From the IMG/VR virus record IMGVR_UViG_3300028829_007990, positions 1-21,734 of that record: a DNA stretch of 21,734 nt, one strand, 5' to 3'. The stretch comes from a virus. Below, piece by piece: positions 17,178-21,413 of the stretch. The translations under genes and the position numbers were made by a program. Within the stretch, counting starts at the first letter, position 1. Each line of letters begins with the position of its first letter. The notes under the pieces are model-generated. The model was not told the origin of the DNA and ran no database searches. It worked only from the letters and a program-made list of their open reading frames with translations.

Positions 17178-18440
17178 ATGAAACTTAAAATTACAGTATT
17201 TGCAGTTTTTATCTCAGCAATTATCGCTGGAGTATTTGGCACACGTATTGTTGAAACGGTAGGAAAGGGAACTTATCAGATTAAACAGGCCGCCGTTTCT
17301 GGTGAAATGACCGCACATATGCAACCGGGTATGTATGGACAATGGTTTGGTGATATTCAAGTTTGGCCTAAATCGGAAACATTTTATTTCACTAAAGATA
17401 ATGTAGAAGGTGGTTCGAGCGATACTAGTGTTCAAGTACGGTTTGCTGATGGTTCGGAAACTGGAATTTCGGGTACAATGCGATATGCATTACCCACTTC
17501 GCCAGAACAGGCTATTGGTCTAATTACGCACCATGCATATATGTCGCCAGAAGACCTAGAAGCTAAATTGATCTTACCGATTGTACGAAAAGCATTGATC
17601 AATACTGCTAATCTTATGACTGCTAGAGAATCTTACGCAGAAAAGAAAACAGACTTCTTTACAATGGCAAGAGATCAGGTTGAATATGGAATGTATTTGA
17701 CCGAAGAATATGAAAAAGAAGTAGTCGATCCAACCGATCCGTCTGGTCTTACTAAAATTAAAATCTTCGCAAAACGTCCGAGGGTTGATAAGAAAACTGG
17801 AATTATTTTGAGGGAAGCAAATCATCCTCTGAATAATACTGGTATTCGGATTGTCAATTTCGAAGTAAAACAGTTCGATTATCCAGACCGGGTACGAAAA
17901 CAGATTGCCCAACAGCAAGAAAATTTGATGGCTATCGCTACTGCTAAATCTCTTGCTAAAAAAGCAGAACAGGATGCTATTACTGTAGAGCAAGAAGGTT
18001 TGGCTAACGTGATGAAAGCCAAATATTTAGAAGAGGAAGTAAAAGTTAAAGCTGTTGTTGTTGCGGAACGAGATAAAGAAGTTGCGGAACTTCATGCTCA
18101 TAAAGAACTTGAAGTTGCAAAACTCGCTAGACAGGCCGCAAAAGAAACTAAACAACAGTTGATTCTTTTGGGTCAAGGTGAATCGGAACGAAAGAAGTTG
18201 GTAATGAGTGCCGATGGTGCGTTAGCACAAAAACTTGAAGCGTGGGTAAATGTTAATGCAAATTACGCTACGGCTCTAGAAAAGAATGCACAAAAACTTG
18301 TTCCAAATATTGTCATGGGTCAATCTGGTAAGTCTGGAAATGTATCTCCAGTTACCGATTTTATGGACTTGATTAAAATCAAGACCGCAAATGATCTTCA
18401 TTTGGATATGACAATGGGTTCTAACAAGAATCGCAAATAA
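17178..18440 (+). CDS. SPFH/Band 7 (prohibitin-flotillin-like) membrane protein
   Basis: 420 residues from ATG 17178 (GGAG upstream). The hydrophobic N-terminus (about 4-20) anchors it to the membrane. The SPFH-type domain covers about 25-240, with VQVRFADGSETGISGTMRY and VNFEVKQFDYPDRVRKQIA. It is followed by a long Ala/Glu/Lys-rich coiled coil (about 245-345, e.g. AKSLAKKAEQDAITVEQEG) of the kind that lets these proteins form large rings. In bacteria, SPFH proteins (HflK/C, QmcA, flotillins) organise membranes and control proteases such as FtsH. A phage copy may protect the infected cell's membrane or restrain host proteolysis. This is inference. It is the last gene before a strong terminator. 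Confidence 0.85.
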   Translation: MKLKITVFAVFISAIIAGVFGTRIVETVGKGTYQIKQAAVSGEMTAHMQPGMYGQWFGDIQVWPKSETFYFTKDNVEGGSSDTSVQVRFADGSETGISGTMRYALPTSPEQAIGLITHHAYMSPEDLEAKLILPIVRKALINTANLMTARESYAEKKTDFFTMARDQVEYGMYLTEEYEKEVVDPTDPSGLTKIKIFAKRPRVDKKTGIILREANHPLNNTGIRIVNFEVKQFDYPDRVRKQIAQQQENLMAIATAKSLAKKAEQDAITVEQEGLANVMKAKYLEEEVKVKAVVVAERDKEVAELHAHKELEVAKLARQAAKETKQQLILLGQGESERKKLVMSADGALAQKLEAWVNVNANYATALEKNAQKLVPNIVMGQSGKSGNVSPVTDFMDLIKIKTANDLHLDMTMGSNKNRK

Positions 18441-18507: not shown

Positions 18508-18774
18508 ATGAAATTATATCTGATAAAATATAAAGATTCTGGAACCTATCATAAAAAAGTTTGGGTTAATCCGGGGCATTTAAAACTTCATCTGAGAACT
18601 TGTAAGTTACGGTCTATATCAAACCACCATTGGGATGAAGAAGAACAAGAAGAAGATAAAAAATTTAATAAAAAAATCCTAGATAATATTGAGATGCATA
18701 TAATCGATGTTGAAGAACATCCACCAGTAGTAGTTCAACTTGAACTAGACGACAAGAACGAATGGAACGTATGA
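18508..18774 (+). CDS. Phage protein of unknown function
   Basis: 88 residues from ATG 18508; the frame is open back to a TTG at 18496 within the terminator tail. MKLYLIKYKDSGTYHKKVWV starts a beta-like N-terminus. The middle holds HLRTCKLRSISNHHWDEEE and is then strongly acidic. Only a weak RBS (GGA) is visible. No promoter was identified between the terminator and this gene, so expression may rely on read-through or an unseen phage promoter. The stop overlaps the SLOG gene start (ATGA). Confidence 0.65.
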   Translation: MKLYLIKYKDSGTYHKKVWVNPGHLKLHLRTCKLRSISNHHWDEEEQEEDKKFNKKILDNIEMHIIDVEEHPPVVVQLELDDKNEWNV

Positions 18775-19169
18775 AAATAAAAATTTTGATAACAGGTGGT
18801 AGGGATTTTACAGATAATGAATTTATTGATTTGATATTAAATAAATATTACGTTGATTATAATGAAGAGATTTCATTAGTCTTGGGTGGAGCCTCTGGAG
18901 CAGATACGTTAGCCGCATGTTGGGCCGAACATAACAAAGTAGATCATCAGATTATATATGCCAAGTGGAAAAAATATGGTAGATATATGGCTGGTCGAAT
19001 TCGTAACAAAGAAATGGCTGATACCAAACCAGATTTTGCAATTGCGTTTCCGGGTGGAAATGGAACAGCGAATATGAAAAGTATTTGTAATGAAAGAAAT
19101 ATAATAGTAATCGAACCCGAATATCATACCGACTTGGATATATCTGATAATAGATATATAGAAATGTAA
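18771..19169 (+). CDS. SLOG-family protein (DUF2493/YAcAr-like)
   Basis: 132 residues from ATG 18771, overlapping the previous stop. LITGGRDFTD near residue 6, VLGGASGADTLAACWA (about 39-54), WKKYGRYMAGRIRNKEMAD (about 67-85) and AFPGGNGTANM (about 94-104) are the signature steps of the Rossmann-like SLOG fold (GGRDF and GAxGAD motifs). SLOG proteins bind nucleotides or their derivatives and occur in sensing or processing systems. Here it begins a cluster with a GGQ domain and a phosphatase, but its ligand is unknown. Confidence 0.85.
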   Translation: MKIKILITGGRDFTDNEFIDLILNKYYVDYNEEISLVLGGASGADTLAACWAEHNKVDHQIIYAKWKKYGRYMAGRIRNKEMADTKPDFAIAFPGGNGTANMKSICNERNIIVIEPEYHTDLDISDNRYIEM

Positions 19170-19516
19170 TGAGAGAACATATATTTGGAATGACAAAAAA
19201 GGATTTTGAGATCAGTTTTTATTCTGGGTCTGGTGCTGGTGGACAACACAGAAACAAACACAAAAATTGTGTTAGAATATTCCATAGAGCAAGTGGGGTG
19301 ATGGCTACTGGTGCTGATTCAAAAAGTCTTGAACAAAATAAAAAGAACGCATTTAAAAGACTAACCAACAACGATAAATTTAAACAATGGATAAAAGTAG
19401 AGTTAGCAAAAAGAGCGTCTGCTTTTGATGAAATGAACAAAAAAATTAATGATATAGTGGATGTTGCCATGCGTGAAGAAAATCTAAAAATTGAATATGG
19501 AGAAGACATTAAATGA
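19169..19516 (+). CDS. Stand-alone GGQ-domain (release-factor-like) protein
   Basis: 115 residues. FYSGSGAGGQHRNKHKNCVR (about 17-36) carries the GGQ loop (24-26) that triggers peptidyl-tRNA hydrolysis, in the RF-1 domain context also found in ArfB/YaeJ and PrfH-like proteins. It lacks the codon-recognition domains of RF1/RF2. After the catalytic core, the C-terminus is helical with a Lys-rich segment (NDKFKQWIKVELAKR) and an acidic end, so it differs from the basic tail of ArfB that enters the mRNA channel. ATG overlaps the SLOG stop (TAATG). Function inferred: release of stalled or damaged ribosomes. Confidence 0.85.
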   Translation: MREHIFGMTKKDFEISFYSGSGAGGQHRNKHKNCVRIFHRASGVMATGADSKSLEQNKKNAFKRLTNNDKFKQWIKVELAKRASAFDEMNKKINDIVDVAMREENLKIEYGEDIK

Positions 19517-20022
19517 TATTTAAAATTTTTAGCCAACAAAACATAGAAAAATATATCGGGGATCAACCATATGTATTAATATCAATTGCCGGGAAACATC
19601 CTGATGGTAGTCATGGGTTCGCAGAATTACTAGCCGATCCAAACAGGATGGATGTATTACAATTAACGTTTGATGACGTGAGTGATAATAAAGATTGGGA
19701 AGGTAATATTGATCCTGATATAATTCCATTTAACGAATCACACGCAAGAGACATTATAGATTTTACTGAATATTATGAAGATAATATAGATTTAATTTGT
19801 GTGAATTGTTATGCTGGAATATCTCGTAGTTCTGGAGTTGCTAGTGCGTTATCAGTTATTAGAAATGGTAGTCGAAGTGATAATTGGATTTGGGATTCTC
19901 CAAAATATTATCCAAATTATCTGGTGTATAAAACGTTGTTGAAAGTATGGCAAGATAATTGGACGGATGATGATGAAGAATCTTTGAAAGCGAAGTTACA
20001 TGAGAAAGGAATTACTGTATGA
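19513..20022 (+). CDS. Cys-dependent protein phosphatase-like (DSP/PTP fold)
   Basis: 169 residues. The P-loop CYAGISRS has C99 and R105 (C-x5-R), preceded by a hydrophobic strand (LICVN) as in tyrosine and dual-specificity phosphatases. FDDV near 53-56 could supply the general acid. HARDIIDFTEYY resembles the helix before the P-loop. A phosphatase of this kind may remove phosphates from proteins, RNA ends or nucleotides. It is coupled to both neighbours by ATGA overlaps. The usual His before the Cys is replaced by Asn, so activity should not be taken for granted. Confidence 0.78.
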   Translation: MIFKIFSQQNIEKYIGDQPYVLISIAGKHPDGSHGFAELLADPNRMDVLQLTFDDVSDNKDWEGNIDPDIIPFNESHARDIIDFTEYYEDNIDLICVNCYAGISRSSGVASALSVIRNGSRSDNWIWDSPKYYPNYLVYKTLLKVWQDNWTDDDEESLKAKLHEKGITV

Positions 20023-20405
20023 AATTATTGGGTGAATATTTTAAATTACAAAATGAAATTTATGAATATTTCGGATATCAAGAAGATTGGGTTGTTATTC
20101 CTATGGAGTCAAAACTAAATTATTTTTGGTATATTGATCCGACTGAAAAAGATCATGTAATATATTGGGAATCTAAAAAAGATGTTGTGGAGTTGGGTCA
20201 GTGGTATCAAGATGGAATATACACACAACGATTTTTACCTAAGTGGGTTTATCGTGGTCCTGAATTCACAATGATTTGTACAAACCCCGGAGTAGATGGT
20301 AATAAATTTTTATCAGTATTTGATAATACAAAAGAACATAAATCAATACCAACATATCTTCAAGATGGTATTACAAAATTGGATGGTATGTACAACATAG
20401 TATAA
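20019..20405 (+). CDS. Phage protein of unknown function
   Basis: 128 residues from ATG 20019 (ATGA overlap with the phosphatase stop). Aromatic-rich (LNYFWYIDPTEKDHVIYWES, VELGQWYQDGIYTQRF) and apparently a single beta-rich domain. Its stop is 3 nt before the first paired base of the tmRNA, so the gene and the RNA are physically packed together. No domain recognised. Confidence 0.7.
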   Translation: MKLLGEYFKLQNEIYEYFGYQEDWVVIPMESKLNYFWYIDPTEKDHVIYWESKKDVVELGQWYQDGIYTQRFLPKWVYRGPEFTMICTNPGVDGNKFLSVFDNTKEHKSIPTYLQDGITKLDGMYNIV

Positions 20406-20406
20406 T
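20379..20406 (+). promoter_or_regulatory. Possible tmRNA promoter at end of preceding gene
   Basis: A perfect -10 box TATAAT (20401-20406) spans the stop of the preceding gene, with a poor -35 candidate TTGGAT (20379-20384) at 16 nt. Transcription would begin near 20413, inside the P2 helix, giving a near-mature 5' end. Read-through from the operon is the alternative. Confidence 0.45.
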
Positions 20407-20471
20407 ATTGCTGTATAATCTTATTGACGAAAGTATTTAAGACGTGGGTTCGATACCCACCGCCTCCACCA

Positions 20472-20573
20472 TAAGAGTGTATTGTTCATGGTTGAAACCC
20501 CATCTAGTTTATTATTCTGACATGTCGAAATTGGATAATAATCAAAACGAGAAGTGCAATACACTTTTTTCAT
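20472..20573 (+). other. Intervening segment of permuted tmRNA
   Basis: 102 nt between the encoded CCA and the 5' G, expected to be removed by processing. AAGAGTGTATTG (20473-20484) pairs with CAATACACTTTT (20557-20568) over 12 positions with one G-U, bringing the two pieces together. A second hairpin TTATTATTC/GGATAATAA lies at 20509-20517/20533-20541. No ORF is evident. Confidence 0.85.
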
Positions 20574-20664
20574 GGGGGCGAACTGGATTCGATTGGATAT
20601 AATAATCTTTAAGACAGCACTAGGATGATAGTTGGCCTAGTAAAAAATCTATCAGATTATAAAT

Positions 20665-20697
20665 GCAAATGATTACGATCTAGCATTGGCGGCGTAA
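20665..20697 (+). CDS. tmRNA tag reading frame, ANDYDLALAA
   Basis: From the resume codon GCA (20665) ten codons read A-N-D-Y-D-L-A-L-A-A, then TAA (20695-20697). With the alanine carried by tmRNA the tag is A-ANDYDLALAA. The ANDxxxALAA frame matches the E. coli tag ANDENYALAA, including the LAA end read by ClpXP. The base four before the resume codon is A, as in E. coli. This is not an independent gene; it is translated only after ribosome switching. Confidence 0.93.
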   Translation, partial: ANDYDLALAA

Positions 20698-20711
20698 AGT
20701 TGCCTTGGGCT

Positions 20712-20747
20712 TGGGACACCTAGAAACAGAACGTCCCACCTTCTTTT
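20712..20747 (+). terminator. Hairpin and T-rich end of tmRNA
   Basis: TGGGAC (20712-20717) pairs with GTCCCA (20733-20738) around a 15-nt loop, followed by CCTTCTTTT. It may be both the 3' stem of the coding piece and a modest intrinsic terminator. The stem is short (6 bp). Confidence 0.55.
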
Positions 20748-20766
20748 ACATACCCGAAAATAAACA

Positions 20767-20794
20767 TTGACATACTCCGAAACTCTGTTATACT
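20767..20794 (+). promoter_or_regulatory. Sigma70 promoter, extended -10 (repeat family)
   Basis: TTGACA (20767-20772), 16-nt spacer, TGT-TATACT (-10 at 20789-20794). The spacer end AAACTCTG is shared with the promoters at 21067 and 21386. It serves the gene at 20830. Confidence 0.88.
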
Positions 20795-21066: not shown

Positions 21067-21094
21067 TTGACACCTACCGAAACTCTGGTATACT
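21067..21094 (+). promoter_or_regulatory. Sigma70 promoter, extended -10 (repeat family)
   Basis: TTGACA (21067-21072), 16-nt spacer, TGG-TATACT (21089-21094). ACCGAAACTCTG before the -10 nearly repeats the promoter at 20767. It serves the gene at 21138. Confidence 0.88.
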
Positions 21095-21137: not shown

Positions 21138-21389
21138 ATGAAAGAAATGAAGAAACGTTTGTTATGGGATAAAATATTCGATCCATCATTAAAATTACCA
21201 AAGACCGAAGAAGAGATTTTGGTATGGGCTGAAAAGGTGTTTAGTGACCTTTCTCCAGAAAATCTTACTTGTGATGGTGAATTATCAGGTGGTCGAGTTC
21301 GATCCCGACTTGCTGAATTGAACCGTGAATTGAAAGAGCTAGAGAAATTACTTGGGAGAAAGATTGAAGAATCTGATGTTTATTCTTGA
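21138..21389 (+). CDS. Small helical phage protein, unknown
   Basis: 83 residues from ATG 21138 with CGGAG upstream. Mostly helical and charged (TEEEILVWAEKVFSDLSP, RLAELNRELKELEKLLGRK, a short coiled coil). Its TGA stop (21387-21389) lies inside the TTGACA of the next promoter. Function unknown; small early phage proteins of this size often modify host functions, but that is only context. Confidence 0.72.
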   Translation: MKEMKKRLLWDKIFDPSLKLPKTEEEILVWAEKVFSDLSPENLTCDGELSGGRVRSRLAELNRELKELEKLLGRKIEESDVYS

Positions 21390-21413
21390 CATCGAATAAA
21401 ACTCTGGTATACT
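21386..21413 (+). promoter_or_regulatory. Sigma70 promoter overlapping a stop codon (repeat family)
   Basis: TTGACA (21386-21391), 16-nt spacer ending AAACTCTG, TGG-TATACT (-10 at 21408-21413). The stop codon of the upstream gene is inside the -35 box, as at 7751. It serves the gene at 21450. Confidence 0.88.

Follow-up and report, generated by a model that had tools for sequence, protein, structure and literature searches.

Gene content of the phage fragment

The window, by which we mean the whole stretch of DNA analyzed here, is a 21,734-bp IMG/VR fragment. It encodes a T4-like RNase H (phrog_107), a primase, a class II RNR, a deoxynucleotide monophosphate kinase, a dCMP deaminase and a phage PDDEXK nuclease, together with six tRNAs found by ARAGORN. 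With its counterpart in cyanophage S-PM2 this RNase H shares 42% identity, and about 1,400 phage records match it. A macro-domain protein (2001-2534), an SPFH/Band 7 protein (17178-18440) and a YAcAr/SLOG protein (18762-19169) are encoded by the same phage.

According to the ORF coordinates, four overlapping genes are arrayed in a row on the plus strand (18762-20405), encoding the YAcAr/SLOG protein, an RF-1 domain protein, phrog_5614 and phrog_24232. The second gene (19169-19516, plus strand) specifies a release-factor-like protein of 115 aa with an RF-1 domain (PF00472, 57.5 bits, E 1.6e-15; phrog_3122, E 5e-18), in which the GGQ motif is kept as GAGGQHRNK. Its best matches among solved structures are the mitochondrial C12orf65, which is the top PDB match, and RF2, and the protein is predicted to be a codon-independent release factor of ArfB/C12orf65-like type. 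Relatives were found in seven IMG/VR contigs (L008-L014), and the GGQHRNKH signature recurs in contigs L303 and G324. Two RF-1 phage contigs match the standard tmRNA model below threshold (G003:1519-1644, 45.1 bits; G004:13833-13947, 44.4 bits). These matches cover the full length of the model within only about 120 nt and may be tRNA-like forms that lack a tag, or else ordinary tRNA genes.

The gene row stops 3 nt before the acceptor piece of a permuted tmRNA gene, with which it is probably co-transcribed. Just downstream of the tmRNA, three near-identical promoter-like repeats of the form TTGACA-N~7-AAACTCTGnTATACT (20767-20794, 21067-21094 and 21386-21413) each precede a small gene and likely represent a phage promoter class. 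Transcription of the tmRNA by read-through is assumed, because these plus-strand promoter-like sites lie downstream of the gene.

Structure of the permuted tmRNA gene

A permuted tmRNA with the tag ANDYDLALAA followed by a stop was called by ARAGORN at 20379-20788 on the plus strand. The permuted family RF04321 matches 20409-20697 with 112.6 bits (gathering score 47, E 1.2e-21), and the beta_tmRNA family RF01850 matches 20357-20748 with 96.6 bits (gathering score 84, E 1.6e-28). Both matches exceed the curated cut-offs, and chance is excluded by these scores and E-values. The first-pass annotation, made from the letters alone, had read the locus as a phage-encoded, circularly permuted tmRNA gene and had proposed a search with the Rfam tmRNA covariance models; ARAGORN and the two Rfam models, permuted and beta, bear out that reading. 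The gene is real and intact, with all sequence parts present in the order T-arm and CCA, spacer, 5' acceptor strand, D-loop, PK1 and tag.

All parts lie on the plus strand. In the RF04321/RF01850 alignment the acceptor piece (20409-20471) consists of a P2 strand (20409-20440), the T-arm (20444-20460) and CGCCTCCACCA at 20461-20471, which is the 3' acceptor strand with the discriminator A and an encoded CCA. An intervening segment of 102 nt (20472-20573), removed in our model, follows, and its ends form a stem adjoining the acceptor stem. The coding piece (20574-20748, with the 3' end taken from RF01850 and approximate) begins with the 5' acceptor strand GGGGGCG, and continues with the D-loop, the second P2 strand (20593-20619), the pseudoknot PK1 (20620-20654), the tag reading frame (20665-20697) and a 3' hairpin TGGGAC/GTCCCA (20712-20738). 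The short frame reads ANDYDLALAA, ending in the manner of other tags in LAA before its stop.

Pairing of 20574-20580 with 20461-20467 gives G-C, G-C, G-U, G-C, G-C, C-G and G-C, so that the 7-bp acceptor stem with G3-U70 described previously for this locus can be read directly off the sequence. The alanine identity elements, namely G3-U70, the 7-bp stem and the ACCA end, are present as judged from the letters. PK1 is made up of CTAGG (from 20620) with CCTAG (from 20636) and of TGATAG (from 20626) with CTATCA (from 20649). That P2 joins the two pieces was likewise anticipated, with a figure of about 17 pairs; the models and a count by hand give about 19 (6+4+2+7), in the segments 20409-20414/20614-20619, 20420-20423/20610-20613, 20426-20427/20606-20607 and 20434-20440/20593-20599. 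When the two pieces were folded by energy alone, P2 was not recovered; the predicted helix is derived from the covariance models and from P2 letters common to the nearest relatives.

The closest viral tmRNA copies among the matches listed are L250, which is 72% identical, and L194. Helix 1 of PK1 changes from CTAGG/CCTAG in the window to CGGAG/CTCCG and CCGAG/CTCGG in L250 and L194, and helix 2 from TGATAG/CTATCA to GAATGA/TCATTC and GAATGG/CCATTC, with the pairing kept by these compensatory changes in every case. The 3' hairpin is also kept in both copies, its two strands altered in step, and their tags are ANDYDVAIAA and ANDYDFAIAA. The in-step changes on both strands of PK1 and of the 3' hairpin therefore place the tmRNA gene under constraint.

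Distribution among phages

The initial statement that no established phage case of the permuted form is known is wrong. Two-piece phage tmRNAs were described in PMC9004378, which reports tmRNA in 402 phages with 133 unique structures, 53 of them two-piece (50 of the 53 from aquatic phages), and copies are also present in GenBank isolates and in IMG/VR. Elsewhere, 79 phage tmRNAs are listed in PMC11915505, and tmRNA, SmpB and release factors are reported from huge phages in PMC7162821. As a kind of gene the phage permuted tmRNA is already known, and the window is a further example, adding a clean beta-type copy.

Three pattern scans of IMG/VR yielded 83, at least 120 and at least 120 matching stretches (together at least about 320), of which some recur between scans and a few are false. 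A tag was obtained from 273 of the 314 listed IMG/VR matches that were parsed, and 219 of the tags end in LAA. In three isolates the gene is absent from the GenBank annotation: QDWS595 (L002, 2933-3280), CcrRogue (L005, 1971-2289) and BUCT-ZZ01 (L007, 1930-2330). Permuted tmRNAs are common in viral contigs, as this survey indicates, and are missed in some GenBank annotations.

Searches for close DNA relatives of the window found none, and none were confirmed through RNase H protein patterns. The blastn matches in ACP17, RHph_Y65 and Bobbio were rejected as T-arms of phage tRNAs, which are ordinary tRNAs. Searched with the standard tmRNA model, the phages 4L372XY and Vibrio 1.121.O, which share phrog_24232, showed no match.

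Phylogenetic analysis

A quick tree was constructed from 226 tmRNAs, comprising viral rows and alpha- and betaproteobacterial rows. The window falls in a set of six viral rows (support 100), inside a part of 92 rows that are all from phages (support 84). The alpha and beta bacterial rows are placed elsewhere in the tree, and the labels change six times, against a mean of 46.5 when shuffled. Within the six-row set, L027, L142 and L164 sit on long branches, and only the link of the window to L194 and L250 is firm. L027 is probably a false match to the wide pattern, with a tRNA-like T-arm inside its spacer. The phage copies fall largely into lineages of their own, close to the betaproteobacterial type, in a tree whose deep forks are weakly supported and which does not fix the number of captures from bacteria.

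Among bacterial copies the tmRNA of the window is nearest to those of betaproteobacterial type. This need not name the host, because the Synechococcus elongatus phage BUCT-ZZ01 also has a beta-type permuted tmRNA.

A covarying stem in the spacer

For the spacer analysis, 174 distinct phage spacers of at least 45 nt were compared, pairing base k, counted from the CCA, with base -(k+4), counted back from G1, and using shuffled partners as the control. A stem at the start of the spacer was found in fixed register and covarying in about 90% of the phage copies; positions k=3-9 are paired in 93-95%, versus 49-79% with shuffled partners, and several Watson-Crick pair types are used at each stem position. 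The final four spacer bases are TGAT in 133 of the 174. In the window, all ten pairs at k=2-11 are formed in this register, within a region that the Rfam models leave unpaired. L250 and L194 are without a spacer stem in the family register, and the stem is thus not universal.

A matching stem in identical register also occurs among beta bacteria and some of the alpha bacteria. A phage-specific meaning of the stem was rejected on this ground, and since bacteria have the same stem it is taken as an inherited feature of the precursor. It probably assists RNase P and 3' trimming by drawing the two cut sites close to each other. No published description of the stem was found in a limited literature check, which missed key papers on two-piece tmRNAs, and novelty is not claimed.

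Proposed function and alternative explanations

The gene very probably encodes a working beta-type two-piece tmRNA of a tailed phage whose replication genes are T4-like, an RNA for ordinary trans-translation through host SmpB, AlaRS and RNase P. While the parts, their order, their covariation and the phage context are seen in the DNA, transcription, processing, charging, tagging and benefit, which we infer, would run as follows. The transcript would read through from the upstream gene row, host RNase P would cut before G1 (20574), and the 3' side would be trimmed to the encoded CCA (20471). The 102-nt spacer would be lost, with the two pieces held together by the acceptor stem and P2. Charging by host alanyl-tRNA synthetase through G3-U70 and delivery to stalled ribosomes by host SmpB and EF-Tu would then allow the tag A-ANDYDLALAA to direct the growing polypeptide to host proteases. 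The phage might gain extra rescue capacity during mRNA degradation in infection. A changed fate of stalled proteins, as suggested in the first-pass annotation, finds no support, the tag being of the normal ..ALAA degradation type.

Host SmpB is the likely partner because, of 50 related viral contigs, 49 showed no SmpB; with a single contig of the 50 encoding it, a general link of permuted tmRNAs with phage SmpB was rejected. A 516,805-bp phage contig with rIIA/rIIB genes (G324, that of L098; 22414-22839 and 293391-293696) encodes both SmpB (172 bits) and an RF-like GGQ protein in addition to its permuted tmRNA, a gene set that amounts to nearly self-supplied trans-translation.

The neighboring genes raise the question of whether the row and the tmRNA (18762-20748) form a rescue operon, in which the GGQ protein and the permuted tmRNA are made together and combine tag-free with tagging rescue. 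This fits the overlapping row that ends 3 nt before the tmRNA and the kept GGQ with its RF-1 family match over the cut-off. In a second phage contig (L303), an RF-1 gene lies upstream of a beta-type permuted tmRNA at a distance of about 0.9 kb, and in MoMoMixon an RF-1 gene and a tmRNA of the one-piece form are about 20 kb apart. However, an RF-1 domain occurs in only 3 of the 50 viral contigs with permuted tmRNA, an association that is rare and not conserved, and a general link with RF-1 genes was rejected. L250 and L194 have no RF-1 near the tmRNA, and none of the seven phage contigs that carry the closest RF-1 proteins contains a permuted tmRNA. We consider such an operon unlikely, and the GGQ protein may be functionally linked to the tmRNA. 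The locus offers a testable case of a phage with two unrelated ribosome-rescue genes side by side.

The RNA might instead act as an inhibitory decoy that takes up SmpB in competition with the host tmRNA and so blocks trans-translation in the host, for which a form with only the tRNA-like domain, resembling that of phage DS6A, provides a precedent (PMC4131195, PMC11915505). A decoy needs neither a tag frame nor PK1, yet both are complete and constrained in the window, which makes this reading very improbable. Since tmRNA genes are common integration sites (PMC11915505), a functionless piece of bacterial ssrA could also have been left by imprecise excision or misassembly. Such a relic is scarcely credible here: all parts are complete, phage genes lie on the flanks, and the gene groups with viral copies (support 100) rather than with the sampled bacteria. 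The covarying stems, with PK1 and the 3' hairpin kept despite strand changes in L250 and L194, argue against it as well.

Comparison with known systems

The window shares with the Rfam families RF01850 and RF04321 the gene order, the acceptor stem, the T-arm, P2, the resume region and the stop. Its 102-nt spacer falls among phage spacers, which are often 50-110 nt, whereas those of the bacterial sets, partly chosen by length, are 24-65 nt (beta) and 10-58 nt (alpha). The two-piece tmRNA of the Methylophilales phage Melnitz, an aquatic myophage (PMC9004378), likewise has a permuted gene and a complete tag frame. Its affinity is with Alphaproteobacteria, and a link to a glutamine riboswitch is described for it, in contrast to the beta-type tmRNA of the window, in which no riboswitch was found with Rfam.

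Alcaligenes phage QDWS595 and Synechococcus phage BUCT-ZZ01 score like the window against RF04321 (111.0 and 111.9 bits) and beta_tmRNA (93.8 and 94.5 bits). Their tags, ANDNVYAAAA and ANDETFSMALAA, differ from ANDYDLALAA, and their gene neighborhoods are unrelated to that of the window. The Cluster C1 mycobacteriophages (Bixzunavirus Bxz1) resemble the window in having an RF-1 gene and a tmRNA in one phage genome. In the Bxz1-type mycobacteriophage MoMoMixon, the tmRNA, about 20 kb away from the RF-1 gene, is of the one-piece form, whereas that of the window is permuted.
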